DNA of 64,000 bases, taken from assembly GCF_016405985.1 (NCBI RefSeq), contig NZ_JAEFCF010000013.1:1-64000 (forward strand), given 5' to 3'. Origin of the DNA: Paracoccus sp. IB05. GTDB lineage: Bacteria > Pseudomonadota > Alphaproteobacteria > Rhodobacterales > Rhodobacteraceae. Shown here in pieces: positions 43,122 through 60,660 of this stretch. The notes beneath the pieces were generated by a model. It saw nothing but the letters and a program-made list of their open reading frames with translations, was not told the origin of the DNA and searched no databases. Position 1 is the stretch's first letter. Each line of letters begins with the position of its first letter. The translations under genes and the position numbers were made by a program.

Positions 43122-43125
43122 GCTG

Positions 43126-43640: not shown

Positions 43641-44645
43641 TCAGCCCGCGCTTGAGGCGCGGATCACCAGGTCGACGGGGGTAAGGGTGACCGGCGGCGG
43701 CGCGGTCTTTGTCTCAAGCCAGCTGATCAGCTCTGCCGCCATCCGGCGACCAAACCCGGCGATGTCGCAGCGCACCGAACTGAGCGGTGGAAAGGCGTCG
43801 CGGCATTCCTCGATATCGTCAAAGCCGACAAGGCGGAAATCAGAGCCGACCTTACGGCCAAGGGCCGCCAGGCCGTTCGTCAGCCCAAGTGCCACGAGGT
43901 CGTTGAAACACAATGCGGCATCGACACCGGGGCTTGCATCAAGGATCCGCGCCAGCTCGCGCCCCTGTGCGCGCGACGGGCGGCCGGGCAGGATCAGCGG
44001 CGCGATCCCGGCATCGCGCATCACCTGGAGATAGCCCGACATCCGCTCCTGCGTGACCTGGCGCCCCTCGATCCCGCCGGCAAAAGCGATGCGCCTGGCC
44101 CCGGTTGCCAGCAGATGTTCAGTCGCAAGCCGGCTGCCGCGTTCATAATCGGGGGCGGCAAACGGGAAGCTCGCAGTCTCTGCATATGCCTTGCGCAGGA
44201 CCTGCAATGCCGGGATGCCGGCGCGGGCAATCGTGCCGAAGGTTGCCTCTTCCGCGCCATAGGCCGGCGAGATGATCAGCGCCGAGACCCCGTGTTCCAG
44301 CATCGCCGCCACCACCTGGGCCTGCAGGCCTGGATCTTCGTCGGTATTGGCGAGCACCGTCGCATAGCCCCGCGCGGATAAAGCCATCTGCGCCGAGGTG
44401 GCGAATTCGGTGAAAAACGGGTTCCTCAGATCGTTGATCACCAGCCCCACCAGCCCCGCATTCGACTGTCTGAGCATCGCGGCGGAACGGTTATAGACAT
44501 AGCCGAGATCGGCCATGGCGCGCCGCACCTCCTCGCGGGTCTGGTCACGCACCAGCGGGCTGTTCTGAAGCACCAGGCTGACGGTCGATTTCGACACGCC
44601 TGCCAGGCGTGCGACATCAATGATCGTCGGCCTCTTCTCCATCAC
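43641..44645 (-). CDS. LacI-family transcriptional regulator, distal in the sugar-uptake operon
   Basis: A 334-residue repressor. The helix-turn-helix is TIIDVARLAGVSKSTVSLVL near the start, followed by the hinge VRRAMADLGYVYNRSAAML. The periplasmic-binding-like sensor domain runs from residue 65. It is the last gene of the leftward operon, one base from the DUF993 gene, so it is expected to sense the operon's substrate or an intermediate. Confidence 0.9.
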   Translation of the reverse strand: MMEKRPTIIDVARLAGVSKSTVSLVLQNSPLVRDQTREEVRRAMADLGYVYNRSAAMLRQSNAGLVGLVINDLRNPFFTEFATSAQMALSARGYATVLANTDEDPGLQAQVVAAMLEHGVSALIISPAYGAEEATFGTIARAGIPALQVLRKAYAETASFPFAAPDYERGSRLATEHLLATGARRIAFAGGIEGRQVTQERMSGYLQVMRDAGIAPLILPGRPSRAQGRELARILDASPGVDAALCFNDLVALGLTNGLAALGRKVGSDFRLVGFDDIEECRDAFPPLSSVRCDIAGFGRRMAAELISWLETKTAPPPVTLTPVDLVIRASSAG

Positions 44646-44646
44646 A

Positions 44647-45816
44647 TCAGCCCTGTTCTATGCCATGCAGGCGGCACAAAAGCGCCATGCGCTCTGTCGC
44701 CAGATCCGGCTGTGCCAGAAGACCGGCCTGATCCGCAAGCCGGAAGACTTCGGCAAAATGGGCAATGCTGCGTGAGGACTGAAAGCCCGCGGGCATGATG
44801 AAACCGGGCTGATGGCCGTTCACCCAGGCGAGAAAGGCGATACCGGCCTTGTAGTAACGGGTTGGCGCGCGGAAAATCTCACGGCTGAGCGGCTCTGTCG
44901 GGGTCAGCAGGCGGTGATATTCCGCGTGATCGCCTTCCGCCAGCGCTTCCAGCGCCTGGGCCGCTGCGGGGGCGATGGCGGCGAAAATGCCGAGAAGCGC
45001 ATGGGAATGATGGGTGCCGTCGCCCTCGATCAGCCGGGCATAGTTGAAATCATCCCCGGTATAGAGGCGGACACCTGGCGGCAGGCGGGCGCGAAACGCT
45101 TCTTCATGCGCCTGATCCAAAAGGGAAATCTTTATCCCGTCGACCTTGCCGGGGTTTTCTGCAATCAGGCCGATCACGAAATCCGAGGCCTCGGCCACTG
45201 TCGCGCATCCCCAATAGCCCGCGAGTCCAGGGTCGAACATCTCGCCCAGCCAGTGCAGGATCACCGGCTCTGCCGCCTGGTCGATCAGCCGGCGGTAGAT
45301 GCGGTGATAGATGTCAGGCGTGGCGCCGAGTGCGGGGAGCGCCTTTGTCGCCATCAGGATCGCCTGCGACCCCGTTGCCTCCAGCGCCTCGCATTGCTCA
45401 GTATAGGCACCGAGGATCGCATCCGGCGTGGTCAGATCAGCCAGCGCCTTGTGATCGGTACCGGCACCCGAGGCCACGCGCGGGCGCAGCGGATGCGCTT
45501 TCGCCTCGCGCATGGTGCGGGTGATCAGCTCTTTCGCGGTCAGCCAGTCCACCCCCATGCCGCGCTGTGCGGTGTCCATCGCTTCGGCGAGGCCGAGCCC
45601 CTGATCCCAGAGGAAATGACGGAATTTCAGCGTGCTGTCCCAGTCGATAGCGGGGCGGCCCTCCCAGGGGTCGCGCTCGGCGAGCGGGGCCGAGACCACA
45701 TGTGCGGCGGCAAAGGCGGTGCGCGCGAGCGGGCGGCGCGGCGCGCGCGGGATCAGCGGCGCGCCGGTGAGGCGGTAGCGCGCCAGCCCTCCGGCAGGGG
45801 TGGGAAGGGTGATCAT
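44647..45816 (-). CDS. DUF993 family protein (dihydrodipicolinate-synthase-like TIM barrel)
   Basis: A 389-residue enzyme-like protein. Family stretches are KFRHFLWDQGLGLAEAMDTA, PVILHWLGEMFDPGLAGYWG and VDGIKISLLDQAHEEAFRAR. The Lys in KVDGIKISLL is at the place of the Schiff-base Lys of the DapA superfamily, which suggests an aldolase or lyase. Substrate unknown. The start at 45816 overlaps the stop of the Dabb gene (ATGA). In this operon it could cleave a keto-sugar intermediate, which is inference only. Confidence 0.8.
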   Translation of the reverse strand: MITLPTPAGGLARYRLTGAPLIPRAPRRPLARTAFAAAHVVSAPLAERDPWEGRPAIDWDSTLKFRHFLWDQGLGLAEAMDTAQRGMGVDWLTAKELITRTMREAKAHPLRPRVASGAGTDHKALADLTTPDAILGAYTEQCEALEATGSQAILMATKALPALGATPDIYHRIYRRLIDQAAEPVILHWLGEMFDPGLAGYWGCATVAEASDFVIGLIAENPGKVDGIKISLLDQAHEEAFRARLPPGVRLYTGDDFNYARLIEGDGTHHSHALLGIFAAIAPAAAQALEALAEGDHAEYHRLLTPTEPLSREIFRAPTRYYKAGIAFLAWVNGHQPGFIMPAGFQSSRSIAHFAEVFRLADQAGLLAQPDLATERMALLCRLHGIEQG

Positions 45817-46133
45817 GCGCCTGCTCCGCAATCGAGGTCGAAGACGAGGATGCCGTCGAGCCCGCCAATGGCCGCCGCGACCAGCCTTGCGCCAAGGGCC
45901 CGGTGATCAGGATGGGCCTGATAGGCGGCCAGCGCCGCCCAATTGTCAAAATCGATGGTGAAGCCATGCAGATAGCCGCGCTCGATCTGTTCGGGGCTTT
46001 CCGAGCGACCGGCATGGATCGCGCCGATCCCGGCGACCTGGTCGCGGATCGGATGCAAAGCGGCAAACAGCGCGGCGATCTCTGCTTCGCTTATGGTTTC
46101 GCGAAAGCGGATCAGGACGATATGGCGGATCAT
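45813..46133 (-). CDS. Dabb (stress-responsive alpha-beta barrel) domain protein
   Basis: A 106-residue dimeric ferredoxin-like protein that opens MIRHIVLIRFRETISEAEIA and has the family strand YLHGFTIDFDNWAALAAYQA with AHPDHRAL. Such proteins occur as small enzymes or as accessories in catabolic clusters. It overlaps both neighbours (GMC gene and DUF993), so all are translationally coupled. Confidence 0.85.
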   Translation of the reverse strand: MIRHIVLIRFRETISEAEIAALFAALHPIRDQVAGIGAIHAGRSESPEQIERGYLHGFTIDFDNWAALAAYQAHPDHRALGARLVAAAIGGLDGILVFDLDCGAGA

Positions 46134-47728
46134 GGGGTGGCTCCTTGCAATCCGTGGGAGGCGCGGATCATGTCGGCGGCTTTCTCGGCGATCATGATGG
46201 TGGCGGCATTGGTGTTTGATGAGACCAGGCGCGGCATCACCGAGGCATCGACCACCCTGAGTGCTTCGATCCCGTTGAAGCGAAGCTGCGGGTCGACGAC
46301 GGCTTCTGGGTCGGTGCCCATGCGGCAGGTGCCCGCCGGGTGGTGGTCGGTTTTGGCATTGCGGCAGGCATAGTCGAAGTAATCCCGGTCGCTTGTGACC
46401 CCCGGCCCCGGCAGACGCTCGGCCAGCACGAAGGGTTTCAGCGCCGCCTGGGCCATCATCTCACGCGCGAGCTTCAGCCCCTCGACCGACATCCGGCGGT
46501 CATAGGGGTCGGCCCAGTAATTCGGATCGATCAGCGGTGCGGCCAGCGGATCGGCCGAGGCCAGCCGCACCGTCCCGCGCGAGCGCGGGCGCAGGAAGGC
46601 GGAATTCAGCGTGACGCCGCCCTGGGGCATGGCCGCAACCCCGGCCTCGATCCCCGAGCCAAGACCGAGATGGAACTGGATATCGGGCGAGCGCGCCGCC
46701 GGATCGGCATACCAGAAGCCGCCGGTCTCGAACAAAGACGAGGCGACGGGGCCGCGTTTCGTCAGGAGATATTGCAGCCCGGCCAGGGCCGACCAGAGCG
46801 GTTTTGCATAGCGGTCATAGGTATGCGGGCCGCTGCATTCGGCGATGACAAAGAGGTCGAGATGGTCCTGGAGATCGGCGCCGACACCGGGCTGATCCAG
46901 CGCCACCGGGATCCCGAGGCTTTGCAGATGATCTGCCGGCCCGACCCCCGAAAGCTGCAACAGCCGGGGCGAGCCGATGGCGCCGGAACTGAGGATCACC
47001 TCGCGGTCGGCGCGCAGGGCGCCGCTTGCGGTCTCGACCCCCACTGCGCGGCCGCGCGCGATCATCAGGCGCAGCACCTGGATCCCGGTCCGCACGGTGA
47101 GATTGGCCCGCCCCCGTGCCGGGCGCAGATAGGCGGTCGAGGTCGAAGATCGCCGCACATTGCGCTGCGTCAGCTGATAATAGCCCACGCCGTCCTGGAC
47201 CTCGCCGGTCATATCGGGGTTGAACGGGATGCCCATTTCCGCGCAGGCGCGAAACCATGCCTCGCAGATCGGCAGGGGGGCTGCGGGTTTCGATACGCCG
47301 AGCGGGCCGCCCTTGCCATGCCAGCGATTGTCAAAGCTGTCATTGTCTTCGGCCCGGCGAAAATACGGCAGCACATCCTCGTAAGCCCAGCCCTCACAAC
47401 CGAGCTGACGCCATTCATCGTAATCCAGCGCATTGCCGCGCGTGTAGATCTGCGCATTGATCGACGAGCCACCGCCCAGCACCCTGCCTTGTGTATACCG
47501 GATCTGCATCCCGTTCATGTGGCGCTGCGGCACGGTCTGCCAGCCCCAGGACCCGATGCCTTTGGTCATCTTCGCAAAGCCCGCCGGCAGATGGTAAAAC
47601 GGATGCCGGTCGCGGGGGCCCGCCTCGAGCAGCAAGACCCGGGTCGCCGGATCCTCTGACAGACGTGCCGCCATCACCGCCCCCGCCGAGCCGCCGCCGA
47701 TGATGATGAAATCGAAATTTTCTGACAT
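46130..47728 (-). CDS. GMC-family FAD oxidoreductase, choline-dehydrogenase-like (copy 1)
   Basis: A 532-residue flavoenzyme. The FAD motif is IIIGGGSAGAVMAARLSEDP. GMC signature 1 is near GRVLGGGSSINAQIYTRGNA. The C-terminal active site contains HPAGTCRMG with the catalytic His and VVDASVMPRLVSSNTNAATI. No signal peptide is present, so it acts in the cytoplasm. It oxidises a primary or secondary alcohol of a sugar, polyol or terpenoid-like substrate. The second GMC in the operon differs greatly in sequence. Confidence 0.88.
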   Translation of the reverse strand: MSENFDFIIIGGGSAGAVMAARLSEDPATRVLLLEAGPRDRHPFYHLPAGFAKMTKGIGSWGWQTVPQRHMNGMQIRYTQGRVLGGGSSINAQIYTRGNALDYDEWRQLGCEGWAYEDVLPYFRRAEDNDSFDNRWHGKGGPLGVSKPAAPLPICEAWFRACAEMGIPFNPDMTGEVQDGVGYYQLTQRNVRRSSTSTAYLRPARGRANLTVRTGIQVLRLMIARGRAVGVETASGALRADREVILSSGAIGSPRLLQLSGVGPADHLQSLGIPVALDQPGVGADLQDHLDLFVIAECSGPHTYDRYAKPLWSALAGLQYLLTKRGPVASSLFETGGFWYADPAARSPDIQFHLGLGSGIEAGVAAMPQGGVTLNSAFLRPRSRGTVRLASADPLAAPLIDPNYWADPYDRRMSVEGLKLAREMMAQAALKPFVLAERLPGPGVTSDRDYFDYACRNAKTDHHPAGTCRMGTDPEAVVDPQLRFNGIEALRVVDASVMPRLVSSNTNAATIMIAEKAADMIRASHGLQGATP

Positions 47729-47752
47729 ATCAGACCTCTGAAGGCGGGGTTC

Positions 47753-48508
47753 TTACAGACGGGGCAGGGAAAGGCCGCCATCGACGGCGATCACCGATCC
47801 GGTGGCAAAGCGCAGCTGTCCGGTCACGATGGGCAAAAGGGCCGCCGCGATATCCGCGGGCGCCCCCCAGCGGGCGGCAGGGACAAGCCCCGCATTGATG
47901 CGGGCCGTGTATTTGTCGCGCACCCCTTCGGTCATAGGCGTGGCGATGATACCGGGGCGCAGCTCGAACACGCCGATCTCTTCGGGGGCGAGGCGCAGCG
48001 CGAAATTCCTTGCCATCATCGAGGCGCCAGCCTTCGAAATGCAATATTCCGCACGTTCGGGGCTGGCCATTTCCGCCGAGACCGAGGTGATGAAACAGAG
48101 GCTGCGATAGTCTTTCGCGCGCCGTTTCAGCATCCGCCGCGCCACTTCCTGGGCGAGGAAAAACGCGCCGCGCAGATTGACCTCATGGCAGCGGTCAAAG
48201 CTCTCCGGGCGCATATCAAGAAGGTCGCCGCGTGTGATCGCCGGCACCCCGGCATTCGAGATGAATGTGGTCAGGGCGCCCCCGGCCTCGACCTCGTCCA
48301 TCAGCGCCGGGATGGTTGCAATATCGCGCAGGTCATGACGCAGATAGCGGGTGCCGGCGGGCAAAGCCGCCAGCGCCTCCTGCACCGGACGCGAGGTCTC
48401 GGGCGCCTCGGCTGCGAGCGTCAGGCGAAAGCCCGCCTGGCCAAGTGCGGTTGCAATGCCAAGGCCGATGCCCTGCTGCCCGCCGGTGATCAGCGCGTGA
48501 CAGCTCAT
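47753..48508 (-). CDS. Short-chain dehydrogenase/reductase
   Basis: A 251-residue classical SDR. It has the cofactor motif TGGQQGIG at 8-15, NAG at the fourth strand, catalytic Ser in FITSVSAEMAS and YCISKAG (YxxxK). The closing GSVIAVDGGLSLPRL is typical. It probably oxidises or reduces a keto/hydroxy intermediate of the pathway. Its start overlaps the next GMC gene stop by four bases. Confidence 0.88.
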   Translation of the reverse strand: MSCHALITGGQQGIGLGIATALGQAGFRLTLAAEAPETSRPVQEALAALPAGTRYLRHDLRDIATIPALMDEVEAGGALTTFISNAGVPAITRGDLLDMRPESFDRCHEVNLRGAFFLAQEVARRMLKRRAKDYRSLCFITSVSAEMASPERAEYCISKAGASMMARNFALRLAPEEIGVFELRPGIIATPMTEGVRDKYTARINAGLVPAARWGAPADIAAALLPIVTGQLRFATGSVIAVDGGLSLPRL

Positions 48509-49995
48509 GCCGCCCGCCTTTCCGTCAGATGCGCGCCAAGCCGCAGCGCCAGCGCCGCGATGGTCAGCGATGGGTTCACCGCCGCCGAGGTCGGCAGGAC
48601 CGAGGCATCCGCGATATAGAGATTGTCGAAGTCATGCGCCTTCAGGTCGGGATCGACCACCGAACCGCGCGGATCTGCCCCCATCCGGCAGGTGCCGCAT
48701 TGATGGCTGGGGGTGCGTTTCCCGAACTCTTTGGTGAAGACAATCGGCCAGCCGGCGCGGCGCAAAGCGGTTTTCAGACGCTGGCTCAAAAGGCCGTGAG
48801 CAGCCATGTTTGATCGTTCCCATTGCAGATGGATTTGCCCGCCACGCCATATCACCCGCGATTCCGGTTTCGGCAGATCCTCTGACATCGTCATCATATG
48901 GACGGAATGATCGGCGATGAAGCCGGCCAGCCGGCGCGGCAGCCCGCTTTCCGCCGCGAGGATCGGCCCGGTCACGCGCCCCAGCATCTGGATATTGCCC
49001 AATGGGGTGCCGCCCTGGCCGCCGGTCAGATACCAGTCATTGAGCTGGATGGTCTTTGCATAGACCGAGGTATTGCGGCGCAAAGGGTTGAAGCCGATCA
49101 CCGCCGAAAGATTGTGGTTCATGAAATTGCGCCCGACCTGGTCGGAGCTGTTGGCAAGCCCCGCCGGGCTGGCGCTGTCCGCTGAGGCGAGCAGCAGTGC
49201 CGCCGAGACCACCGCCCCGGCGCAAAGGCAGATCAGCGGCGCCGAAAGGGTCAGTCTCTGGGCCTGGTGCGTCAGTTCGACCCCGGTGACCTTGCGGTTT
49301 GCGGCCAGCAGCCGCGTCACCCTGGCGCCGGTCATCAGGGTGACATTGGGGTATTTCAACGCCTCTGCCAGCGCGCAGGTCTCGGCATCCATCTTGCCGC
49401 CACGGGTATTGGGAAAAGCATCCCATGTGGTGGCGCCGCCTTGGAGCCATGTCCCGATATCAACGCCGAGAGGCAGCGCGGCGGGGTGCAGCCCCTGGGC
49501 CTGAAACGCCCGGCGCAGCGCGGTAATGGTCGGCTCGTCGGGGACCGGCGGGAAGGGCAGGGGGGCAGAGCGCGGCGGCTCGGTCGGGTCCTGGTCTGCC
49601 GCGCCCCTGACCTGATAGAGTGCCTCGGCCATGGAATAGTAACGTTCCAAATTTTGATAGGCAAAAGGCCAGCCGGGCGTCAGCCCCTCCATATGCCGCA
49701 AGGGCGCGAAATCGACCTCGCGGTAGCGCATCAGCACCGCGCCGTAGAATTTGGAATTGCCGCCGGGATGATAATAGTTGCCGGGGTTGAACCTGCCCCC
49801 GGCCGCGTCAACCCACATCTCATCGGGGCGGAAATACCCGTGGCGAAAGATCGCCTCGGGGTCACGCGCCTCGGGGCAATCCTTTAAAGCCTCGCCCCGC
49901 TCGAGGATCAGCACCCGGGCCCCCGAAGGCGCCAGGGCGCTTGCGAGTGTCGCGCCGCCGATCCCGGCCCCGATGATGATGATATCGGGGCTCAT
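48505..49995 (-). CDS. GMC-family FAD oxidoreductase (copy 2)
   Basis: A 496-residue flavoenzyme. The FAD motif is IIIIGAGIGGATLASALAPS. The active-site segment is TPSHQCGTCRMGADPRG, and the end is IADASVLPTSAAVNPSLTIA. It belongs to the group that includes glucoside 3-dehydrogenases and gluconate or other sugar dehydrogenase subunits. No Tat signal is visible. The start overlaps the ABC ATPase stop by four bases, so oxidation follows import directly in the transcript order. Confidence 0.88.
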   Translation of the reverse strand: MSPDIIIIGAGIGGATLASALAPSGARVLILERGEALKDCPEARDPEAIFRHGYFRPDEMWVDAAGGRFNPGNYYHPGGNSKFYGAVLMRYREVDFAPLRHMEGLTPGWPFAYQNLERYYSMAEALYQVRGAADQDPTEPPRSAPLPFPPVPDEPTITALRRAFQAQGLHPAALPLGVDIGTWLQGGATTWDAFPNTRGGKMDAETCALAEALKYPNVTLMTGARVTRLLAANRKVTGVELTHQAQRLTLSAPLICLCAGAVVSAALLLASADSASPAGLANSSDQVGRNFMNHNLSAVIGFNPLRRNTSVYAKTIQLNDWYLTGGQGGTPLGNIQMLGRVTGPILAAESGLPRRLAGFIADHSVHMMTMSEDLPKPESRVIWRGGQIHLQWERSNMAAHGLLSQRLKTALRRAGWPIVFTKEFGKRTPSHQCGTCRMGADPRGSVVDPDLKAHDFDNLYIADASVLPTSAAVNPSLTIAALALRLGAHLTERRAA

Positions 49996-51104: not shown

Positions 51105-51108
51105 GGCA

Positions 51109-52880: not shown

Positions 52881-52929
52881 TTCCCCTCCCTATTCCCCGG
52901 TTGCGGGGCGATCGCGCCAGGGGCGCGAC

Positions 52930-52974
52930 AAAAATTTACGTAAATTTTTGAGCAAATTCCTGTTCAGGAATTTG
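52930..52974. repeat. Two adjacent perfect palindromes between binding-protein and permease genes
   Basis: AAAAATTTACGTAAATTTTT (52930-52949) is a 20-base perfect palindrome. CAAATTCCTG-TT-CAGGAATTTG (52953-52974) is a 10-bp hairpin with a two-base loop. They lie 48-92 bases past the binding-protein stop. They may set higher expression of that gene by stabilising or partly terminating its transcript. Confidence 0.75.
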
Positions 52975-53021
52975 TGGCGCGGGCGGTGTCCGCCCGCACC
53001 GGGATCGAAACGCGGGCGAGA

Positions 53022-54275
53022 TTACTGCGCGGCCGCGACCGCGTCCTTCAGGGCAGTGGCGGCAGAGGCACCATCGGTATATTCGCCATTGAAGACGGCG
53101 GTGATCACATCATAGGTCGCGTTTTTCACCGCAGCCGGCGCACCATAGCCATGCGCCATGGACCCGAACAGCGTGCCGTTGGTATTGGCTTCGGCGAGAT
53201 CCTTGATGCCCTTCTTGCCGCAATCATCGAAATCGGTATCCGGCACATCGGTGCGCGCCGGGACCGAGCCCTTGACCACGTTGAAGGCCGACTGGAAGGT
53301 CGGGCTTTCAATGGCCGAGGCCATCGCCAGCTGCGCTTTGACCTTTTCCTCGCCCTTTACCTTGAACATCGCGAACTGGTCGGCATTAAAGGTCACCGCA
53401 CCCTGCGTGCCGGGGAAGCGGATACAGATAAAGCCTTCTCCTGGCTTTTGTCCGGCTTTCAGGAATTCGCCCTTGGCCCAGTCGCCCATGACCTGCATGC
53501 CCGCTTCGCCATTGATCACCATGGCTGACGCCAGGTTCCAGTCGCGGCCCGAGAAATTGTCATCGACATAGCTGCGCAGCTTGATCAGCTGATCGAAAGC
53601 CGCTGCCATCTTCTCGCCGCCAAGCGCTTCGGGGTCGAGATCGATAAAGGCCGCCTTGTAGAAATCATTGCCCTGGGCCAGCACGAGGCTGTCGAAAATC
53701 GTCGCATCCTGCCAGGGCTGGCCACCATGGGCCAGAGGCGTGATGCCGTTTTCCTTCATCTTGTCGAGAACCGCGATCAGCTCGTCCCAATTGGTCGGCT
53801 CGCCGAGACCGGTCTTGTCCAGCGCCGCTTTCGAGATCCAGACCCAGTTGGTCGAATGCACATTGACCGGCGCCGCGATCCAGTGGCCGTCATGTTTGGA
53901 AAACGCCTGGAGTGCCGCCGGGATCACCTTGTCCCAGCCCTCGGGGCCCGCGACCGCGTCGAGATTGCCGAGCACGCCCTGTTCGGCCCAGTCGGTGATG
54001 TCAAAGCCCAGCATCTGCACGGCAGTCGGCGGGTCGCCTGCGGTCACACGCGCTGAAAGCGCGGTCATCGCCGCCTCGCCACCGCCGCCTGCGACCGGCA
54101 TGTCGACCCAGCCGATGCCCTGCTTCGCAAGATCCTCTTTCAGCACGTTCAGCGCCGCCGCCTCACCGCCTGCGGTCCACCAATGCAGCACTTCCACATC
54201 TTCCGCCGCCGCCATTGAGGCGAGGCCGAAGGTCAGAGCCAGCGCCGAGACCATCCCCTTTGTCATCTTCCTCAT
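53022..54275 (-). CDS. Sugar ABC transporter periplasmic binding protein
   Basis: A 417-residue exported protein of the extracellular-solute-binding family 1. The signal peptide is [20 protein letters not shown]. The mature start [20 protein letters not shown] and [20 protein letters not shown] fit UgpB/MsmE-type sugar binders. The Trp-rich sugar-stacking start (HWW) supports a carbohydrate ligand. The ATG at 54275 follows GGGAGG, and an upstream extension of 31 codons is not family-like. It is the first gene of the ten-gene operon and divergent from a LacI regulator. Confidence 0.92.
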
Positions 54276-54315
54276 CGCATCCTCCCAGATGTTAAGCCCC
54301 TTGCGGGAACGGATT

Positions 54316-54331
54316 ATTGAAACGTTACAAT
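54316..54331. promoter_or_regulatory. Operator-like palindrome of LacI type
   Basis: ATTGAAACGTTACAAT has 7 of 8 base pairs in dyad symmetry around AACGTT. It is 41 bases upstream of the binding-protein start, within the 259-base divergent region, and fits a LacI/GalR-family site. Confidence 0.55.
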
Positions 54332-54534
54332 ATGGCTGCCCGTCAACTGTTTCTTTCTGCCGCTCCATATTGCTGCAATGCAGAAAAATAAGCGTGTTTT
54401 GCGCTATGATGCGGAAATACCGCGAAGTTTCCCAGGTTCAGTTCTTCTGTTGTATCGTTGCATTTTTTTGTCATACTCCGGGCCCACGCCACGGCAACAC
54501 GCCCCGGCGTGTCCGCCCCCGCACATGCCCCGGA

Positions 54535-55593
54535 GTGAAGCCCCTGACCGACCGTCCATCCACTCCTGCCGATCCGCTGTTGCGCCGCGCCGGTGGCCGG
54601 GCAAAAGCCCGCCCGACCCTGCGCACCATTGCGGCCGAGACCGGGCTGGCGGTCACCACCGTGTCGCGGGCTCTGGCGCTGGACCCGCAGATCAAGGCCT
54701 CGACGCGTGATCTGGTCAGGGCAGCGGCAGACCGGCTTGGCTATGTGCCTGATCGCGCGGCACAAAGACTGCGCACCGGGCGCACGCGGGTGGTGCAGCT
54801 GGTGCTGAACCTCGACCATGAATTCCTCGGCTTCACCCATGAGCTGATCGGCGGCCTGTCTGATGCGCTGACGGGCACCGGCTATTCCGTGACGATCTTC
54901 CCCGATATCCTCGGCAGCGACCGGCTGTCCTCGGTCCGCCGTATCGTCGAGGCGCGGCTGGGCGACGGCGTCATCTTCAACCGGACCGAGCCCTTTGACC
55001 CGCGGGTGCGCTACCTGCTGGAACAGGGTTTTCCCTTTGTCAGCCATGGCCGCACCGAGTTTTCCACCCCCCACCCCTGGGTCGATTACGACAACGAAGC
55101 CTTCGCCCGTATCGCGGTCGAGCGACTGATCGCCCGGGGCCGCAAACGCCTGATGATCGTGCTGCCACCGGCGAATTTCTCTTTCGCGCAGCATCTTCGC
55201 TGGGGGGCTGTGGCGGCGGCAAAGGCGGCGGGCATCAGCTGCGAGATTCCCGAAGCGATCAGCCTCGACACTTCCGCGGCTGAGACCATGGCCTGGCTGC
55301 GCCAGCGCCTGTCGCAGCCGGACCGCCCCGATGGTATCATCGGCGTGGGCGAGGTCTCGGCCATGGCCGCGCTGGCCGCGATCAGCGATTGCGGGCTGGT
55401 GCCCGGGCGCGAGATCGATGTCGTGGCCAAGCGCGCCTCGGCGATTTTCGATCTGATGCGGCCCCGGATCGACACGATGGTCGAAGATCTCCGCCTTGCC
55501 GGGCGCAGCATGGGCGAGATGCTCTTGCGCGCGATGGCGGGCGAGGAGCCATCGCGCCTTCAGGTCCTGCATCAGCCGCTGGTCGATTTCTGA
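54535..55593 (+). CDS. LacI-family transcriptional regulator, divergent from the sugar operon
   Basis: A 352-residue repressor with helix-turn-helix TLRTIAAETGLAVTTVSRAL at residues about 22-42, the hinge DRLGYVPDRAAQRL, and a sensor domain. I placed the start at GTG 54535, the last start that keeps the whole HTH; the open frame continues far upstream but only as an antisense-like run. No strong ribosome site precedes it, so the start is uncertain. It probably binds ATTGAAACGTTACAAT and controls the operon starting at 54275. Confidence 0.82.
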   Translation: MKPLTDRPSTPADPLLRRAGGRAKARPTLRTIAAETGLAVTTVSRALALDPQIKASTRDLVRAAADRLGYVPDRAAQRLRTGRTRVVQLVLNLDHEFLGFTHELIGGLSDALTGTGYSVTIFPDILGSDRLSSVRRIVEARLGDGVIFNRTEPFDPRVRYLLEQGFPFVSHGRTEFSTPHPWVDYDNEAFARIAVERLIARGRKRLMIVLPPANFSFAQHLRWGAVAAAKAAGISCEIPEAISLDTSAAETMAWLRQRLSQPDRPDGIIGVGEVSAMAALAAISDCGLVPGREIDVVAKRASAIFDLMRPRIDTMVEDLRLAGRSMGEMLLRAMAGEEPSRLQVLHQPLVDF

Positions 55594-55598
55594 CCGCA

Positions 55599-57116
55599 TC
55601 AGCGCACCCAGTTCGCCCGCGTGCGGCCAATGCGCATGACCACCGATTTCGGTTCCAGATATTCCTCAAGCCCGTAGCGGCCGTTTTCACGGCCCAGGCC
55701 CGATTGTTTCATGCCGCCGAAGGTGACTTCGGGGAAGCCATCCATCCAGGTATTTGTCCAGATCGTGCCGGCTTCGACGCGGCGGGCGAAGGCGAGACAG
55801 ATATGGACATTCTCGCTCCAGACCCCGGCAGAGAGCCCATAGCTGCCGTCATTTGCCAGCGCGATGGCCTCGTCGAGCGTGCGGAAGGTCTGGACGGCGA
55901 GAACCGGACCGAAGACCTCTTCGCGGGCGATGGCCATGTCGGGGGTGACGCCGGTGACGATGGTCGGGCCGTAGAAATCGCCGCTGAGCCCCGGGATGGA
56001 GATTGCTTCGCCACCCATCGCAAGCTGCGCGCCGGCTTTGATCGCCTCTTTCACATAGAGGTCGATCTTGCCCAGATGCGCGGGCGAGACGATGGCGCCG
56101 ACCTGGGTTGCCTCGTCCAGCGGGTCGCCAAAGGCGACACGCCGCGAGAGTTCGGCAACTTTGGCGGTAAAGGTTCCGGCGATGTCTTCATGTACAATGA
56201 TCCGGCTGCCGGAATTGCAGCATTCGCCGGCGTTGAAATACACACCAAAGGCTACGGCATCGGCGGCAGCGTCGAGATCGGCATCGGGGAAGATCACCTG
56301 CGGGTTCTTGCCGCCCAGCTCCAGCGCGACCTTTTTGAGCGTAGCTGAGGCCGCCGCCTGGATCGACCGCCCCACCAGCGTCGAGCCGGTGAAGCTGATC
56401 ATATTCACCTCCGGGTGCGAAGCCATCAGGCTGCCCACCGGCTCGCCATGGCCCAGCACGATATTGACCACCCCCGGCGGCAGGCCCGCCTCGATCAGGA
56501 TCTCACCGAGGATCACTGTGGTCGAAGGGGTGATTTCGGACGGTTTCACCACGCAAGAGCAGCCCGCAGCCAGCGCGAAGGGGAGCTTTTGACCAAGGAT
56601 CCAGAACGGGAAGTTCCAGGGCGTGATGATCGAGACCACGCCGATCGGTTCTTTCAGCACCATGGCCAGCATATCGGGGCCAAGGCTGTTATGGCTGTCC
56701 CCATGCAGCGTGCGCGCCAGCGCTGCTGCATAGCGCCAGAGATCGGCGGCGCCCGAGACCTCGCCCCGCGCCTGGGCGATGGGCTTGCCGGTCTCGAGAC
56801 ATTCGAGCAGCGTCATCTCGTCGACGCGCGTGGCGATCAGATCGGCGACGCGGATCAGGACTGCGGCGCGGTCTTTACCGGAAAGCCGCGACCAGCGTCC
56901 GTCGTCAAACGCCGCCCGGGCCGCCCGGATCGCGGCCTCGGTTTCCGCATGGCCGCCCTTGGCATGGCGGCTGACGAGGGTGCCATGGGCGGGGGAGTGG
57001 CGCTCGAATTGATCCGCGCTCTCATGCCAGGTGCCGTCGATCAGGTGGCGGCCATGAAAGGGCAGGGCGGAAAGGTCGGCTGTTCGCACGGCGGGGATCA
57101 GGGTCAGGTCTTGCAT
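55599..57116 (-). CDS. NAD(P)-dependent aldehyde dehydrogenase
   Basis: A 505-residue enzyme of the ALDH superfamily. The catalytic Glu266 is in VALELGGKNPQ and Cys300 in YFNAGECCNSGSR. The NAD-binding region holds TPWNFPFWILGQKLPFALAA. It probably oxidises a CoA-independent aldehyde, and the C-terminus ends GLEEYLEPKSVVMRIG. The start overlaps nothing; it lies one base past the enoyl-CoA hydratase stop. The closest families oxidise betaine, gamma-aminobutyraldehyde or related aldehydes, and the substrate is not decided. Confidence 0.88.
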   Translation of the reverse strand: MQDLTLIPAVRTADLSALPFHGRHLIDGTWHESADQFERHSPAHGTLVSRHAKGGHAETEAAIRAARAAFDDGRWSRLSGKDRAAVLIRVADLIATRVDEMTLLECLETGKPIAQARGEVSGAADLWRYAAALARTLHGDSHNSLGPDMLAMVLKEPIGVVSIITPWNFPFWILGQKLPFALAAGCSCVVKPSEITPSTTVILGEILIEAGLPPGVVNIVLGHGEPVGSLMASHPEVNMISFTGSTLVGRSIQAAASATLKKVALELGGKNPQVIFPDADLDAAADAVAFGVYFNAGECCNSGSRIIVHEDIAGTFTAKVAELSRRVAFGDPLDEATQVGAIVSPAHLGKIDLYVKEAIKAGAQLAMGGEAISIPGLSGDFYGPTIVTGVTPDMAIAREEVFGPVLAVQTFRTLDEAIALANDGSYGLSAGVWSENVHICLAFARRVEAGTIWTNTWMDGFPEVTFGGMKQSGLGRENGRYGLEEYLEPKSVVMRIGRTRANWVR

Positions 57117-57117
57117 A

Positions 57118-57882
57118 TCATTGCCCGCTGAAAATGGGTTTGCGTTTTTCTGCGAAAGAGGCGACGCCTTCGCTGCGGTCCTCACTGGCGGCGATGGCGG
57201 CAGAGCCGAGCGCCTCGATCAGCGCGCCCTTGTCTTCGCCGCGACCGGCGAGGATCATCTGTTTCGCGACCTCGGTCGCGCGGGGAGACAGCGTTACGGC
57301 GCGGGCGGCTATTTCCAGCGCGGTTGCGCGCGGATCATGTGCGATTTCTGCAATAAACCCCAGGTTATGGGCCCGTTCAGCAGCGATCCTTCGTCCGAAA
57401 AGTGACATTTCCCGCAAGACCGGTTCCGGCAGCAACCGCGCGAGCCGCTGTGTTCCCGACCAGCCTGGCACAATGCCGATGCCGGTTTCCGGCAGGGCAA
57501 TCGTGGCGCCCGGCGCCATCACGCGGATGTCGCAGGCGGCCGCCAGCTCCAGTCCGCCGCCAAAGGCGTGGCCCTCCATCACGGCAATCGTCGGCTGCGC
57601 CAGTCGCGCCAGCCGGTCGAATAACCGATGTCCGCCACGCACCCAATGGCGGGCGAAATCGCGAGGGCTCAGCGCGCCCCAGCCGGTGATGTCGGCGCCC
57701 GAGCAAAAGCATTTCCCCGGCGTCGCGGTGACCAGCACCACGCGGGCCTCACTATGTTCGATCACATCGAGATGGGTGGCGAATTGCGCCAGCATATCTG
57801 CGGTGAAACAATTCAGCTTTGCCGGATTGTCGAGCCGGATTTCGGCCAGGGGGCCATTGAGGGTCAGATGGACCGCGCTCAT
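57118..57882 (-). CDS. Enoyl-CoA hydratase/isomerase family protein
   Basis: A 254-residue crotonase-fold protein. ADITGWGALSPRDFARHWVR and AVMEGHAFGGGLELAAACDI carry the oxyanion-hole backbone. PETGIGIVPGWSGTQRLARL contains one Glu typical of hydratases. The second catalytic acid aligns near there, but I could not fix it. The ATG overlaps the CoA-transferase stop (ATGA). It could hydrate or cleave a CoA-linked intermediate. Confidence 0.88.
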   Translation of the reverse strand: MSAVHLTLNGPLAEIRLDNPAKLNCFTADMLAQFATHLDVIEHSEARVVLVTATPGKCFCSGADITGWGALSPRDFARHWVRGGHRLFDRLARLAQPTIAVMEGHAFGGGLELAAACDIRVMAPGATIALPETGIGIVPGWSGTQRLARLLPEPVLREMSLFGRRIAAERAHNLGFIAEIAHDPRATALEIAARAVTLSPRATEVAKQMILAGRGEDKGALIEALGSAAIAASEDRSEGVASFAEKRKPIFSGQ

Positions 57883-59450
57883 GGCTGCCATCCCATCGGC
57901 CCGGTGCCAAGGAGCGAGAGCGGCATCCGTTTCGCATTTTCCGCGATGCGGACGCGGCCTTTGCTCGCTGCGGTGATGTCGCGGGCGGGGTCTATCCCGG
58001 GCATGATCTCGGTGGCCGCAAGGCCTGTGGCGGTCAGCCGGATCACGCAGCGCTCGGTGATGTATAACACCTCCTGCCCCTGTTCGCGGGCGCGCGCGCC
58101 AGAAAAGGTTACATGTTCGACTTTCTCAACCATCTTGGTGAATTTGCCCGGTTTTGCGATAGAAATGCCGGATTCTGTCAAGTCGACCCCCGCACCCGCC
58201 TCGAACCAGCCCGAGAAGACGATCTTCTTCGCATGCGCCGTGATGTCGACAAACCCGCCACAGCCCGCCGTCAGATAGGGCTTTTTGCCCAGTTTCGAGA
58301 CATTGACATTGCCCTCGGTGTCCACCTCGAGGAAGGACAGGAACGACATGTCGAACCCCCCGCCCTGGAAGTAGATGAATTGCTGCGGCGAGGGGACATA
58401 GCCAAAGGCATTCGAGGCGCAGCCAAAGGCGAAGCCGGTCAGGGGCATGCCGCCCACCGCACCTTGTTCGATCGCCCAGGTCACTGCCTGGGGATGACCT
58501 TCTTCCAGCAGGATACGCGGCACCATGGCGGAAATGCCGAAACCGAGATTGGCGGTCTGGCCGCCCTTCAGCTCCATCGCGGCGCGGCGTGCGATGACTT
58601 TTTCGATTCCGTGTTCGGCTCGGGCAAAGCTTTCCCAGGGGCGCAGGATCTGGCCGGAAATCGCCGGGTCGTAATCGGTTTCCGTGGTCTGGCGCTGATG
58701 CGGATCCAGCACCACCAGATCCACCAGATGCCCCGGCACCCGGACATCATGCGGGCGCAGAGACCCCGCAGTGGTCATCCGCGAGACCTGGGCGATCACC
58801 AGACCGCCATTGTTGCGGGTGGCAATCGCCTGTTCCAGGCCGCCGAGATAGGCGCCCTCATATTCATAGGTAAGGTTGCCATTTGTGTCGGACGTGGTGG
58901 CGCGCAGCACGCAAACATCGGGAAAAATGTTCGGAAAGTGCAACCAGGTCTCGCCGCCAAATTCGGCGCGGCGGACAATCGGCTGGCTTGCGGCACGCGC
59001 ATTCATCGCGCAGCCCTCGCGGATCGGATCGACAAAAGTGTCCAGGCCCACTTTGGTCAGCACGCCGGGACGGCGCGCGGCGGCTTCGCGATGCATGTCG
59101 AACATAATCCCCGAGGGGATATTCCAGGCCGCGACCCGGTCTTCGGTGATCATCTTCCAGATCTCCGGCATCGGCAGGTTCGACCCGCCGGAGGGGTAAG
59201 ACCCCGCCAGCACACGCGCAATCAACCCGTCCTGCGCGATCCAGTCGATCCCTTTGACGCCATACATATCGCCCGCCGCGATCGGGTGCAGCATGGTGAG
59301 CCCGCGCGGATGTCCCTCCAGCCCGAAGCGCTCTCCAAGGGCCTTCAGCACGAAATCCGGGCAGCCAAGCGCCGAGGAAGAGGAGACGGTGACAGTGGCG
59401 CCGTCTTTGATACGGGCGACGGCTTCGGCGGCGGTGGCGAGCTTTGACAT
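57879..59450 (-). CDS. Acyl-CoA:acetate/3-ketoacid CoA-transferase (family I, fused subunits)
   Basis: A 523-residue enzyme carrying both alpha and beta halves of family I CoA-transferases. The N-terminal half starts ATAAEAVARIKDGATVTVSS. The catalytic Glu is in AVTWAIEQGAVGGMPLTG at about residue 330. The beta half holds FIYFQGGGFDMSFLSFLEVD and ends in the MGWQP tail. It likely activates or deactivates an acid with acetyl-CoA or a 3-keto acid. It is the second gene in a four-gene leftward set. Confidence 0.9.
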   Translation of the reverse strand: MSKLATAAEAVARIKDGATVTVSSSSALGCPDFVLKALGERFGLEGHPRGLTMLHPIAAGDMYGVKGIDWIAQDGLIARVLAGSYPSGGSNLPMPEIWKMITEDRVAAWNIPSGIMFDMHREAAARRPGVLTKVGLDTFVDPIREGCAMNARAASQPIVRRAEFGGETWLHFPNIFPDVCVLRATTSDTNGNLTYEYEGAYLGGLEQAIATRNNGGLVIAQVSRMTTAGSLRPHDVRVPGHLVDLVVLDPHQRQTTETDYDPAISGQILRPWESFARAEHGIEKVIARRAAMELKGGQTANLGFGISAMVPRILLEEGHPQAVTWAIEQGAVGGMPLTGFAFGCASNAFGYVPSPQQFIYFQGGGFDMSFLSFLEVDTEGNVNVSKLGKKPYLTAGCGGFVDITAHAKKIVFSGWFEAGAGVDLTESGISIAKPGKFTKMVEKVEHVTFSGARAREQGQEVLYITERCVIRLTATGLAATEIMPGIDPARDITAASKGRVRIAENAKRMPLSLLGTGPMGWQP

Positions 59451-59453
59451 GGT

Positions 59454-60455
59454 TCAGAGGTCCGGGAAGGTGATGGTCTGGCGCTGGCCACTCGTGGCGG
59501 CCTCGCGGATGGCGAGCGCGATGGCGAGGGATTTCACGCCGTCCTCGCCGGTGGCGGCGGGGCGGCCCTCACCGCGGGTGGCGGCGATGAATTCGGCGGT
59601 GCCGGTGGTGTAGAGAGCGGTGGCGGGGAAGGCGATCTCTTCGCGGCCCAGAGCTCTCACCAGCTCCACCCGGCCCTGCGGCTTTTGCGTCATCACGCCG
59701 GGTGCGAAAATCGAGCCTTCGGTGCCATGCACCTCCAGCCCGGAGCCGGCGAAGGGATGGGTAAAGCTCTCATGGCTTTGCACCATGGCGCCCGATTGCA
59801 TCTGCCAGACCGACATGGCGGAATCTTCGACCCCCTGACCCATGCCCGAGGCCGACATGCCGGCAACGACCGAGATGGGGTCCTCATTAAGCAAAAATCG
59901 CACCGTATCAGCGTCATGCACGGTGATATCCGGGATCACCCCGCCCCCTGCCGCAGGATTGTCGATCCGCCAGCCCCGGAGATGCGGCGGCAGATGCACC
60001 GCATGGAACAGGCGCATCGACAGCACCCGCCCGATCCGGCCCGAGGCGATCAGCGCCCGTATGGCGCGATGGCTGCCCGAACAGCGCAGATGGTGGTTGG
60101 TGGCGAAAGTGACCCCGACCGCGCGCGCCGCCCGGACCATTTCTGCCGCGTCAGCAACCGTCATGGCGAGCGGCTTTTCGCACAGCACATGTTTGCCGGC
60201 CGCAATCGCCGCCATGGCCTGGCCGTGGTGTTGTTCATTGGTGGTCGAGATATAGACCGCATCGGTCTGCGGATCGGCAAGCGCGGTGGCGAGGTCGGTA
60301 TCGGCATGGGGGATCGCGTGGCGCGCGGCATAGTCGCGGCCGCGCCTGACCGAAGAACTGACCAGGCGCCGGACCTCGCCGCCGGGCTGGGCGCGAAAGG
60401 CCGGGATCATATATTCGGCGGCAATCGTGCTTGCCCCAACCACCGTCCAGCGCAT
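59454..60455 (-). CDS. Gfo/Idh/MocA family oxidoreductase
   Basis: A 333-residue NAD(P)-dependent sugar/cyclitol dehydrogenase. The Rossmann start is MRWTVVGASTIAAEYMIPAF. The catalytic-Lys motif is CEKPLAMTVADAAEM, and His in PDITVHDADTVRFLL fits the second half of the active site. Members act on inositol, glucose or amino-sugars. The gene is the first of the leftward set with the CoA-transferase, hydratase and aldehyde dehydrogenase. Confidence 0.88.
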   Translation of the reverse strand: MRWTVVGASTIAAEYMIPAFRAQPGGEVRRLVSSSVRRGRDYAARHAIPHADTDLATALADPQTDAVYISTTNEQHHGQAMAAIAAGKHVLCEKPLAMTVADAAEMVRAARAVGVTFATNHHLRCSGSHRAIRALIASGRIGRVLSMRLFHAVHLPPHLRGWRIDNPAAGGGVIPDITVHDADTVRFLLNEDPISVVAGMSASGMGQGVEDSAMSVWQMQSGAMVQSHESFTHPFAGSGLEVHGTEGSIFAPGVMTQKPQGRVELVRALGREEIAFPATALYTTGTAEFIAATRGEGRPAATGEDGVKSLAIALAIREAATSGQRQTITFPDL

Positions 60456-60515
60456 ACCAGCCTCCGCTCCGGATTGCGGGCCCTGTGTCGGCGATGCCTC
60501 AGATGAGAATCAACC

Positions 60516-60546
60516 TGGACCGTTCCAATTAATATGGAACGTTCTA
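60516..60546. promoter_or_regulatory. Two tandem LacI-type operator-like palindromes
   Basis: TGGACCGTTCCA (60516-60527) and TGGAACGTTCTA (60535-60546) are near-palindromes with the same central CGTT and centres 19 bases apart. They lie 61-91 bases upstream of the Gfo/Idh/MocA start. The spacing puts them on roughly the same face of the DNA helix. The cognate LacI protein is not determined. Confidence 0.6.
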
Positions 60547-60660
60547 AATTCTCTGTCAATCTCGCTGAACCGGCCTGGAGTTCCGGTCTTGTTACAAAAA
60601 CTTCACGGGGGTGTTTCGCATCGCCGGGATATAACGCGGGCATATGCCCTGGGGATTGAT

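Follow-up and report, generated by a model that had tools for sequence, protein, structure and literature searches.

A candidate aerobic regulon for 1,5-anhydro-sugars in Paracoccus sp. IB05 with a proposed CoA-linked ring opening and a DUF993 lyase candidate

The window analyzed here is a stretch of 64,000 nucleotides from Paracoccus sp. IB05 (contig NZ_JAEFCF010000013.1, positions 1 to 64,000), and the features of the gene cluster it contains are listed in Table 1. All genes that a preliminary description of this DNA had named for two leftward sets were recovered by family matches. The first set is the ten-gene run from SBP through lacI1, and the second comprises AFR, CoA-transferase, crotonase, and ALDH. 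This description had also stated that almost every gene of the ten-gene run is joined to the next by a 4-base overlap. Here, we found such overlaps at five of the nine junctions and gaps of 1, 4, 24, and 141 bases at the others, so that this wording was too strong. Both lacI genes are present, but lacI2 is located on the plus strand and runs divergently from the SBP gene. Its frame is open from 53668, the extent given is that scanned, and the start codon is not fixed. A long minus-strand frame over lacI2 (54343-55599) gave no family match. For three genes, starts likelier than those of the longest frames were adopted (SBP, ATG 54275; DUF993, ATG 45816; ALDH, ATG 57116). The start codons of DUF993 and ALDH were verified in the sequence.

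Table 1. Genes and predicted operator sites of the cluster (positions of the window)
Feature	Position	Strand	Family match or proposed role
lacI1	43641..44645	-	PF00356; predicted regulator of catabolic genes
DUF993	44647..45816	-	PF06187, E 2.1e-165; DHDPS/NAL-fold lyase candidate
Dabb alpha-beta barrel	45813..46133	-	PF07876; perhaps accessory
GMC1	46130..47728	-	PF00732/PF05199; proposed C6 alcohol oxidation
SDR	47753..48508	-	PRK12745 group
GMC2	48505..49995	-	FAD glucose-dehydrogenase/pyranose-oxidase-like; proposed 1,5-anhydroglucitol 2-dehydrogenase
UgpC/MalK-type ATPase	49992..51104	-	PF00005, OB_MalK
Permease 2	51109..51987	-	PF00528
Permease 1	51984..52880	-	PF00528
Sugar-binding protein (SBP), CUT1-type importer	53022..54275	-	PF01547
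Operator O2 (TTGAAACGTTACAA)	54317..54330		before SBP gene
lacI2	54511..55593	+	PF00356, PF13377; predicted regulator of transporter module
Aldehyde dehydrogenase (ALDH)	55599..57116	-	PF00171, E 1.1e-164
Crotonase-family enoyl-CoA hydratase/dehydratase	57118..57891	-	PF00378; perhaps ATG at 57882
Family I CoA-transferase (YdiF/FadX-like, 523 aa)	57879..59450	-	PF01144
AFR homologue (Gfo/Idh/MocA, 333 aa)	59454..60455	-	predicted 1,5-anhydro-D-fructose reductase, product 1,5-anhydro-D-mannitol
Two O1-like sites	60515..60547 (60515-60528; 60534-60547)		before AFR

Conservation was assessed in 80 named loci, which had been picked for a DUF993 relative and in which a match anywhere in the locus was counted. 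When we considered the loci that reach far enough for the gene in question, GMC1 and SDR were each absent from 0/74, lacI1 from 0/77, and GMC2 from 1/74. SBP was missing in 4/68 and the ATPase in 5/73 loci, and Dabb was without a match of at least 45% identity in 28 of 78 testable loci. The cluster genes co-occur with DUF993 more often than expected by chance. The CoA-transferase gene was found upstream of DUF993 in 33 of the 40 genomes asked (two of the 33 are cut by the contig end), and in the remaining seven the contig stops 0.3-11.3 kb upstream, before the CoA-transferase position. A LacI-type operator, O1, is found at most 83 bp before AFR in all 20 newly fetched loci, and it lies between lacI1 and DUF993 in each of eight rearranged (divergent) loci; the background was 25 in 4000 random 300-mers. 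In the window, the site at 60534-60547 has two mismatches to O1 and the O1-like site at 60515-60528 was spotted by eye. The same predicted operator is thus found before both catalytic sets, which argues for a single regulon. Co-conservation of the two sets had been proposed in the preliminary description as a test of their connection, and from the CoA-transferase linkage (33/40) and the joint presence of AFR and O1 (20/20) it can be seen that they are conserved together. The CoA arm looks like a part of the oxidative unit.

In two relatives, decay has affected nine catabolic and regulatory genes together, and the importer survives. In five loci the CoA-transferase and crotonase genes adjoin GMC2-SDR-GMC1-DUF993 and the transporter is absent. 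O2 was found before the importer in all 37 distinct loci having lacI2 and in none of the 46 loci without it. Transporter and lacI2 form a separable module, and both gene sets look like one conserved regulon, in which LacI1 would control the catabolic genes via O1 and LacI2 the importer via O2. ALDH had no match in L060, L084, L092, and L104, although the flanking genes on both sides are present, and in L104 no AFR match was detected in the 3.5 kb preceding the CoA-transferase. These gaps suggest that ALDH and AFR are dispensable at the locus. A glycerate kinase gene is present in 44 of the 76 loci with enough downstream sequence. It is missing from the window at the position where relatives carry it, and the MOFRL gene of the same genome is located on another contig and is 41.6% identical to the operon kinase.

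The Gfo/Idh/MocA protein yielded 366.9 bits to 4KOA and 366.4 bits to 2GLX, and the next family, glucose-fructose oxidoreductase, followed at 97.6 bits. It shares 62% identity with 4KOA over 205 aa, and the AFR of the matching Sinorhizobium meliloti cluster equals 4KOA across all 205 residues compared. S33, R38, K94, D176, and H180 are kept in 19/19 sequences; we take K94, D176, and H180 to be the catalytic lysine, aspartate, and histidine and S33 and R38 to belong to the cofactor site. The protein is therefore predicted to be a 1,5-anhydro-D-fructose reductase, an enzyme that uses NADPH to reduce 1,5-anhydro-D-fructose (AF) to 1,5-anhydro-D-mannitol (AM). Because of this homology, the substrate class is probably that of the 1,5-anhydro-sugars. 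We retain the earlier proposal that the genes look made for the oxidative breakdown of a sugar-like alcohol, but cyclitols and keto-sugars in general have become less likely. The preliminary description knew of no pathway with exactly this gene set; part of the pathway is described, since AFR and the use of 1,5-anhydrofructose by Rhizobiaceae are covered in a 2025 review (PMC12441222). AFR relatives also occur in other settings: L175 pairs a GMC2 relative with an AFR relative and the rest of the cluster is absent, and L187 groups an AFR-like gene, whose product is only 41.9% identical to the window protein, with a PF00701 aldolase-family gene, ALDH, and GMC. Around an AFR homologue in L184, nothing more than a crotonase match at 29% and a partial ATPase match at 25% was found.

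According to the same review, Rhizobiaceae convert AM to mannose via hydroxylation at C1 by a P450-like enzyme not yet identified, a claim credited there to the 2006 AFR paper (PMC12441222). If this applied here, AFR would form AM, an unlinked P450-like enzyme would produce mannose, and the remaining cluster would serve mannose or another compound. At least one P450 was indeed found in 41/41 cluster genomes tested, and one lies roughly 9-22 kb from the cluster in G461, G472, G482, and G488 (contig of the same number). However, the single P450 found in the genome of the window is on another contig, and no P450 is among the listed cluster genes of L170, L172, L173, and L174 in the PLSDB gene tables, which are incomplete. 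Moreover, this route would assign no function to the CoA-transferase, crotonase, ALDH, two GMC enzymes, DUF993, and glycerate kinase, although most of these genes share the conservation and the decay of AFR. We regard this explanation as unlikely.

SBP is 75.6% identical over 390 aa to 4R2B, presumably a glucose-bound structure, with a solved "glucose-binding protein" among its other matches. The ATPase exceeded the cut-off of PRK11650 (460 vs. 432 bits). Judging from the locus order, SMc04396 is presumably the S. meliloti counterpart of SBP. SMc04396 was reported to be dextrin-induced (PMC4960864), which is compatible with AF from starch and with glucose and thus not decisive. GMC2 is nearest in the PDB to glucose dehydrogenase 6a2u (E 4e-30), with H431 in 89/89 and N474 in 88/89 sequences. 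Another glucose-like sugar or glucoside might be the true substrate, with GMC2 forming a 2-keto-aldose that AFR reduces to the manno sugar. Related GMC2 and importer pairs do occur in quite different clusters, the importer alone survives in the two relatives with decayed genes, and AFR was reported in the 2006 study to reduce osones too. Such a route is not needed for glucose and would not account for the CoA arm, and we consider this reading very improbable.

GMC1 reached 558 bits with the choline dehydrogenase model PRK02106, under its cut-off of 605; its nearest PDB entries are 8b7s and 9lq0, and H462 and N505 are kept in 88/90 and 90/90 sequences. The SDR exceeded the cut-off of NF009386 (301.8 vs. 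250 bits) and carries S142/Y155/K159 in 89/89. The Dabb protein is perhaps accessory and mutarotase-like, which is a guess. The CoA-transferase matched YdiF (2ahu) with E 1.4e-89, and E328 is conserved in 20/20. The best PDB match of the crotonase was 3-hydroxypropionyl-CoA dehydratase 5zai, and both glutamates aligned to it (E115, E135) are kept in 21/21 sequences, as in a 3-hydroxyacyl-CoA dehydratase with two catalytic glutamates. A different use of these enzymes is conceivable, in which GMC2 or SDR oxidizes C3 and the ring ether is beta-eliminated, with CoA chemistry and DUF993 coming into play once the chain has been opened. GMC2 resembles sugar dehydrogenases most closely, the SDR would gain a job, and oxidation-elimination-hydration-reduction is described for levoglucosan (PMC7676230). 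In contrast, enzyme families of known 3-keto routes (e.g., PF01261 barrels) are absent from the genes of the window and the route offers no simple glycerate source. We hold the 3-keto route to be improbable as well, but since substrate class and DUF993 role are common to it and our main explanation, the odds of the two overlap.

The structure model of DUF993 (pLDDT 94) was compared with Foldseek. Among the 50 matches listed, 4DNH came first (TM 0.83 by target), followed by DHDPS/NAL structures, with E-values from 3.9e-9. K229 (K234 in the longer frame) is present in 118/118 sequences and lies within model strand E225-230. As modeled, DUF993 has a DHDPS/aldolase TIM-barrel fold with an invariant strand-6 lysine, and these data are in line with its former designation as a TIM-barrel lyase candidate. 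At rank 26 we found 2v8z, which we take to be YagE, a KDG aldolase. DHDPS family motifs are GXXGE and a tyrosine after strand 4. Neither was seen by eye in the consensus or the window sequence of DUF993, so that we assigned the protein neither to DHDPS nor to KDG aldolase. No significant match resulted when DUF993 and the DHDPS-family protein of L187 were compared by profile. Other DUF993 genes adjoin enolase-superfamily genes in L153, L157, and L171 (over the Pfam cut-off) and in L145 (below it). It is the gene context that suggests KDG aldolase activity. A search by the name DUF993 retrieved no paper from the literature collection used.

From these observations, we infer an aerobic growth regulon for 1,5-anhydro-D-glucitol (AG) and AF. 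The importer would take up the glucose-like ring, GMC2 would convert AG to AF by oxidation at C2, and AF would be reduced to AM by the AFR homologue. GMC1 and ALDH would then convert C6 to the acid and the CoA-transferase would form the C6 thioester, from which the crotonase may eliminate the beta hydroxyl at C4 together with the alpha hydrogen at C5 to give an enol ether. Addition of water at C5, a step to which we assign no cluster gene, would yield a hemiketal; its collapse would break the ether bond, so that the ring would open, CoA would be handed on, and KDG would result. DUF993 would cleave KDG via its strand-6 lysine to pyruvate and D-glyceraldehyde. Oxidation of the latter may give glycerate, which would be phosphorylated by the kinase whose gene adjoins the cluster in many relatives.

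For the outline, an anhydro-sugar regulon with CoA-linked ring opening and DUF993 as C-C lyase, we estimate a probability of about 0.55. It is favored because of the AFR homology, the likeness of SBP to 4R2B, the CoA-transferase linkage, AFR with O1 in 20/20 loci, and the joint decay. The five transporter-less loci, the L175 pairing, the crotonase glutamates, the DUF993 fold and lysine, its enolase-superfamily neighbors, the L187 grouping, and the glycerate kinase in relatives point in the same direction. The full route from AG/AF via AM, C6 oxidation, and ether opening to KDG and its cleavage is tentative and may well differ in its details. CoA-dependent breaking of a sugar ring ether, with DUF993 as a new class of lysine aldolase, is likewise a possibility on which we would not rely. 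Against our own scheme, we count that the SDR receives no step and that addition of water at C5 of the enol-ether thioester is contrary to the usual polarity of crotonases. We also count the DHDPS motifs not seen by eye in DUF993, its profile comparison with L187, the lack of a glycerate kinase at the expected place in the window, L184, the divergence of L187, the ALDH and AFR gaps, and the conflict with the published C1 hydroxylation to mannose.

In patients with glycogen storage disease Ib or G6PC3 deficiency, neutrophils accumulate 1,5-anhydroglucitol 6-phosphate. The 2025 review calls an aerobic 1,5-anhydroglucitol pathway undescribed (PMC12441222). If our reading is true, the cluster would provide such a pathway, one step of which is already known, and a first function for DUF993. 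It looks like a switch-controlled kit with which some soil and marine bacteria use 1,5-anhydro-sugars (ring-locked relatives of glucose) aerobically. The analysis offers a compact candidate gene set with likely regulators and operators, gives DUF993 a testable function, and recasts the P450 of the published rhizobial route as a direct two-hypothesis question.

When compared with known systems, DUF993 shares its model fold and the strand-6 lysine with the DHDPS/N-acetylneuraminate lyase superfamily (class I aldolases), but it is longer and GXXGE and the catalytic tyrosine were not seen by eye. The importer resembles glucose-type ABC importers (4R2B, 5DVF, 2B3B) in its SBP, but it is embedded in a catabolic cluster. 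Levoglucosan catabolism of Bacillus smithii employs four enzymes, has glucose as product, and is not known to include a CoA step. There, too, an anhydro-sugar is opened via oxidation, elimination, and hydration (PMC7676230). The same substrate class is used in the gut, where 1,5-anhydroglucitol and 1,5-anhydromannitol are broken down anaerobically with a PTS and glycyl radical enzymes (PMC12441222). In contrast, the cluster genes of the window include neither a phosphotransferase nor a glycyl radical enzyme and depend on FAD, NAD(P), and CoA. AF catabolism of Sinorhizobium morelense and S. meliloti (2GLX, 4KOA) has the AFR homologue in common with the window. Whereas the rhizobial route ends in mannose via C1 hydroxylation according to PMC12441222, the fourteen other linked genes of the window suggest oxidation at C6, chemistry on CoA, and a step of aldolase type.

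The preliminary description had placed two leftward gene sets in the window, which is part of a 5.29 Mb draft genome, and both are present. The ten-gene run encodes a binding protein (SBP), two permeases, an ATPase, GMC2, an SDR, GMC1, a Dabb protein, DUF993 and the regulator LacI1, and the second set encodes a Gfo/Idh/MocA protein homologous to 1,5-anhydro-D-fructose reductase (AFR), a family I CoA-transferase, a crotonase and an aldehyde dehydrogenase (ALDH). Two LacI regulators were found as described; the second gene (lacI2) is on the + strand and divergent from the SBP gene. The 4-base overlaps, which had been ascribed to almost every junction of the ten-gene run, occur at 5 of 9. An antisense frame was rejected as a gene as it had no family match. 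The 4HBT thioesterase was rejected as a cluster part: among the 80 named loci (see below), a match was found in two, both Pseudogemmobacter; it is also present in four other same-genus loci checked (L030-L033) and seems to be a genus-specific neighbour.

Features discussed in the text; positions refer to the window unless another locus is named
Feature	Location	Strand	Remark
ExbB-like and ExbD-like frames, TonB gene	within 40599-43542	+	Exb frames identified by eye
4HBT thioesterase	43126-43542	-	directly beside lacI1
Antisense frame	54343-55599		
CHAD-domain protein	60427-61521	+	listed frame
GMC2 and AFR relatives (B. diazoefficiens pNK6a)	L175:13500-16175		side by side, no other cluster genes
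AFR-like gene (42%) with PF00701 aldolase-family gene, ALDH, GMC and DUF1349	L187:6727-12511		

The gene order of the window recurs elsewhere. In the 80 named loci, the 80 out of 88 whose DUF993 most resembles that of the window and to which our counts refer, we found the order SBP-permease-permease-ATPase-GMC2-SDR-GMC1-(Dabb)-DUF993-lacI1 together with a close DUF993; the closest one among these best 80 is that of Pseudogemmobacter bohemicus (87%). At a threshold of 45% identity for gene presence, none of the testable named loci lacked GMC1 (0/74), SDR (0/74) or lacI1 (0/77), and absence was rare for GMC2 (1/74), SBP (4/68) and ATPase (5/73) and more frequent for Dabb (28/78). The CoA-transferase was searched for in 40 of the 80 named-locus genomes, and was detected in 39 of them with E <= 1e-100. 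In 31/40 genomes the gene is complete, shares the strand of DUF993 and is situated 6.5 to 12.6 kb upstream of it; in 2/40, a partial gene is located upstream of DUF993 at the contig end. In the remaining seven (L038, L043, L046, L047, L054, L063, L069), the contig stops 0.3-11.3 kb upstream, which makes the position of the gene unreadable. Peteryoungia desertarenae has no lacI2; its fourteen genes are all co-directional, with a glycerate kinase gene after them. In the type B arrangement of Rhizobium, S. meliloti and others, DUF993 is divergent from the rest of the cluster, which reads lacI1-AFR-CoA-transferase-crotonase-ALDH-(lacI2)-SBP-permeases-ATPase-GMC2-SDR-GMC1-glycerate kinase. CoA-transferase and crotonase adjoin a GMC2-to-DUF993 run without the transporter in five loci (L072, L087, L103, L104, L109). 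The completeness of the set is countered by four loci (L060, L084, L092, L104) without an ALDH match between crotonase and SBP or GMC2, and by L104, in which no AFR match was found in the 3.5 kb before its CoA-transferase. Another ALDH may substitute at these four loci.

In two same-genus genomes (loci L032 and L033), AFR, CoA-transferase, crotonase, ALDH, GMC2, SDR, GMC1, DUF993 and lacI1 are present as remnants, which are covered to 0-92% and carry frameshifting indels in 12 of 18 cases. Thus, the catabolic genes were lost together. Sequencing errors might also break genes, but the large missing stretches speak against this explanation. The four importer genes are whole in both genomes (no indel, 2.6-7.3% mismatches). 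Dabb, which lies between decayed neighbours, is likewise free of indels (7.8-8.4% mismatches). The LacI2 protein is 98% identical; its DNA alignment shows a single indel, in L033. The importer and lacI2 seem to be useful alone, perhaps for glucose; the SBP has no other close relative in its own genome, where the next one shares 26% identity.

Scanning the regions that precede AFR, SBP and DUF993 for palindromes yielded two recurrent LacI-type sites. O2 (TTGTAACGTTTCAA) was found before the SBP gene (<=2 mismatches, 300 bp) in 40/40 loci where lacI2 is adjacent and in 0/47 of the others; when identical promoters were left out, these counts were 37/37 and 0/46. O1 (TTGGAACGTTCCAA) lies before AFR in the five type A loci readable at that stage (window, L072, L087, L103, L170) and between lacI1 and DUF993 in 8/8 type B loci, where it precedes lacI1 and is not immediately before AFR. 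Chance levels, taken from random 300-base pieces of the loci, were 25/4000 (O1) and 35/4000 (O2). These sites were defined on sequences already seen in the scan, and the following check alone is out of sample. In 20 further stretches before the CoA-transferase, 3 of them (L190, L193, L201) on contigs that, judged by their length, are without a DUF993 gene, the predicted AFR (61-84% identical) was found in 20/20, and O1 (<=1 mismatch) within 83 bp of AFR, also in 20/20. O1 is absent before the AFR relatives of L175, L184 and L187, which lie outside these clusters. The distribution of O1 therefore links the AFR/CoA set with DUF993 and lacI1 through a common site type, and that of O2 shows a second type that accompanies lacI2 and the importer. 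O1 is the predicted binding site of LacI1, and O2 that of LacI2. The CHAD-domain protein probably starts further in than its listed frame, which extends over the O1 sites and the start of AFR. The possibility that the two sets are unrelated neighbours was rejected, since the placement of the CoA-transferase, the joint decay in L032 and L033 and the 20/20 stretches with AFR and O1 bear out their co-conservation. Taken together, the gene set is real and conserved, and it is very likely co-regulated.

The Gfo/Idh/MocA protein of the window scored 367 and 366 bits against two solved AFRs and 98 bits against the next family. Over the 205 compared residues, 4KOA is identical to the AFR encoded in the S. 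meliloti cluster and shares 62% identity with the window protein; at full length, the window and S. meliloti proteins are 56.5% identical. Because this protein is an AFR homologue, we consider 1,5-anhydro-sugars the substrate class of the cluster, with a probability of roughly 80%. Cyclitols, which had been suggested before, found no support and were rejected: inositol-pathway product names are absent from the clusters of four loci (L170, L172, L173, L174), and the inositol dehydrogenase model gave 122.8 bits at a cut-off of 355. The window SBP shares 75.6% identity with 4R2B, which presumably holds glucose. Judged by locus order, SMc04396 is probably the SBP gene of the S. meliloti cluster. 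SMc04396 is reported to be dextrin-induced (PMC4960864).

Among solved structures, the DUF993 model (pLDDT 94) is nearest to 4DNH, an S. meliloti protein of no known function; DHDPS and N-acetylneuraminate lyases come next. Strand 6 carries a lysine, K229 (K234 in the longer frame), which is present in 118/118 sequences. Two DHDPS features, the GXXGE motif and a tyrosine, were looked for but not seen, and for this reason DUF993 was not filed as DHDPS or 2-keto-3-deoxygluconate (KDG) aldolase; a profile comparison with a DHDPS-family protein gave no match. DUF993 is a candidate C-C lyase and probably functions as such. In a second context (about 50% identical; L018, L022, L023, L161), DUF993 is accompanied by CoA-transferase and SDR in 4/4 loci and by crotonase and Dabb in three; an acyl-CoA dehydrogenase, a PF01261 barrel and a glycerate kinase were confirmed beside it in L022. 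A third context, without CoA genes, has enolase-superfamily neighbours in L145 (under the Pfam cut-off) and in L153, L157 and L171 (over it), Gfo/Idh/MocA matches in L145, L153 and L171, and an annotated sugar isomerase in L171.

GMC2 is nearest to FAD-glucose dehydrogenase and then to fructose dehydrogenase, and pyranose oxidases also match. Its pairing with AFR in L175 suggests consecutive steps; many transposase genes lie near this pair, and the plasmid is typed as conjugative. GMC1 is choline-dehydrogenase-like with a score under the model cut-off, the CoA-transferase is YdiF-like, and the crotonase, nearest to 3-hydroxypropionyl-CoA dehydratase, keeps both glutamates. Glycerate kinase was found in 44 of the 76 type A loci whose downstream sequence is long enough, and in each of 45 cases it lies directly after lacI1, about 2.2 kb past the DUF993 start. 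The window has none after lacI1, and a 41.6% relative is located elsewhere in the genome.

These enzymes could convert 1,5-anhydro-D-glucitol (AG) or 1,5-anhydro-D-fructose (AF) via 1,5-anhydro-D-mannitol (AM) to a C6 acid. In its CoA ester, the C4 hydroxyl would be a beta-hydroxyl and C5 the alpha carbon bearing the ring oxygen. Loss of water would give an enol ether, and water added at C5 a hemiketal, which would open to a 2-keto-3-deoxyhexonate. The chain derived from AM would be D-erythro at C4 and C5, which is D-KDG, and that from AG L-threo. The reduction of AF to the manno alcohol, otherwise hard to understand, would thereby make sense. Cleavage of D-KDG by a lysine aldolase would release pyruvate and D-glyceraldehyde, and the last steps would fall to ALDH and glycerate kinase. 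We hold this full route only tentatively: neither SDR nor Dabb has a firm place in it, the hydration is unusual chemistry for a crotonase, and some loci lack ALDH. A competing route, given in a passage of a 2025 review, has AM hydroxylated at C1 to mannose in aerobic Rhizobiaceae by a P450-like enzyme, there called not yet identified (PMC12441222). An absence of P450 genes from the cluster genomes was not borne out: 41/41 have at least one, in four of the 41 roughly 9-22 kb from the cluster.

DUF993 matches were found in 16/60 relatives, two of them the decayed copies described above, and, in several contexts, in 36/398 genomes of the phylum. AFR (E <= 1e-70) is present in 5/385 genomes of the class, including that of the window. 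The other four are L185, with type B genes from lacI1 through GMC2 on a contig that stops short of the place of DUF993; L184, whose AFR has no more than weak matches around it; L186, on a 3.3 kb contig; and L187, maybe an alternative anhydro-sugar cluster. A sister cluster in L176, L177 and L178 (Thalassospira, Paracoccus and Rhizobium etli plasmids) has a related importer and a GMC2-like enzyme (53-57%) as well as histidinol dehydrogenase, a ThDP enzyme and aspartate ammonia-lyase. In the literature searched, judged mostly from listings, we recognised no description of this gene set, and a sentence on fungi in the 2025 review notes the lack of any description of an analogous oxidative route for AG (PMC12441222). 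The cluster is partly known already through AFR: according to a passage of the same review, a specific reductase of aerobic Rhizobiaceae converts AF to AM (PMC12441222).
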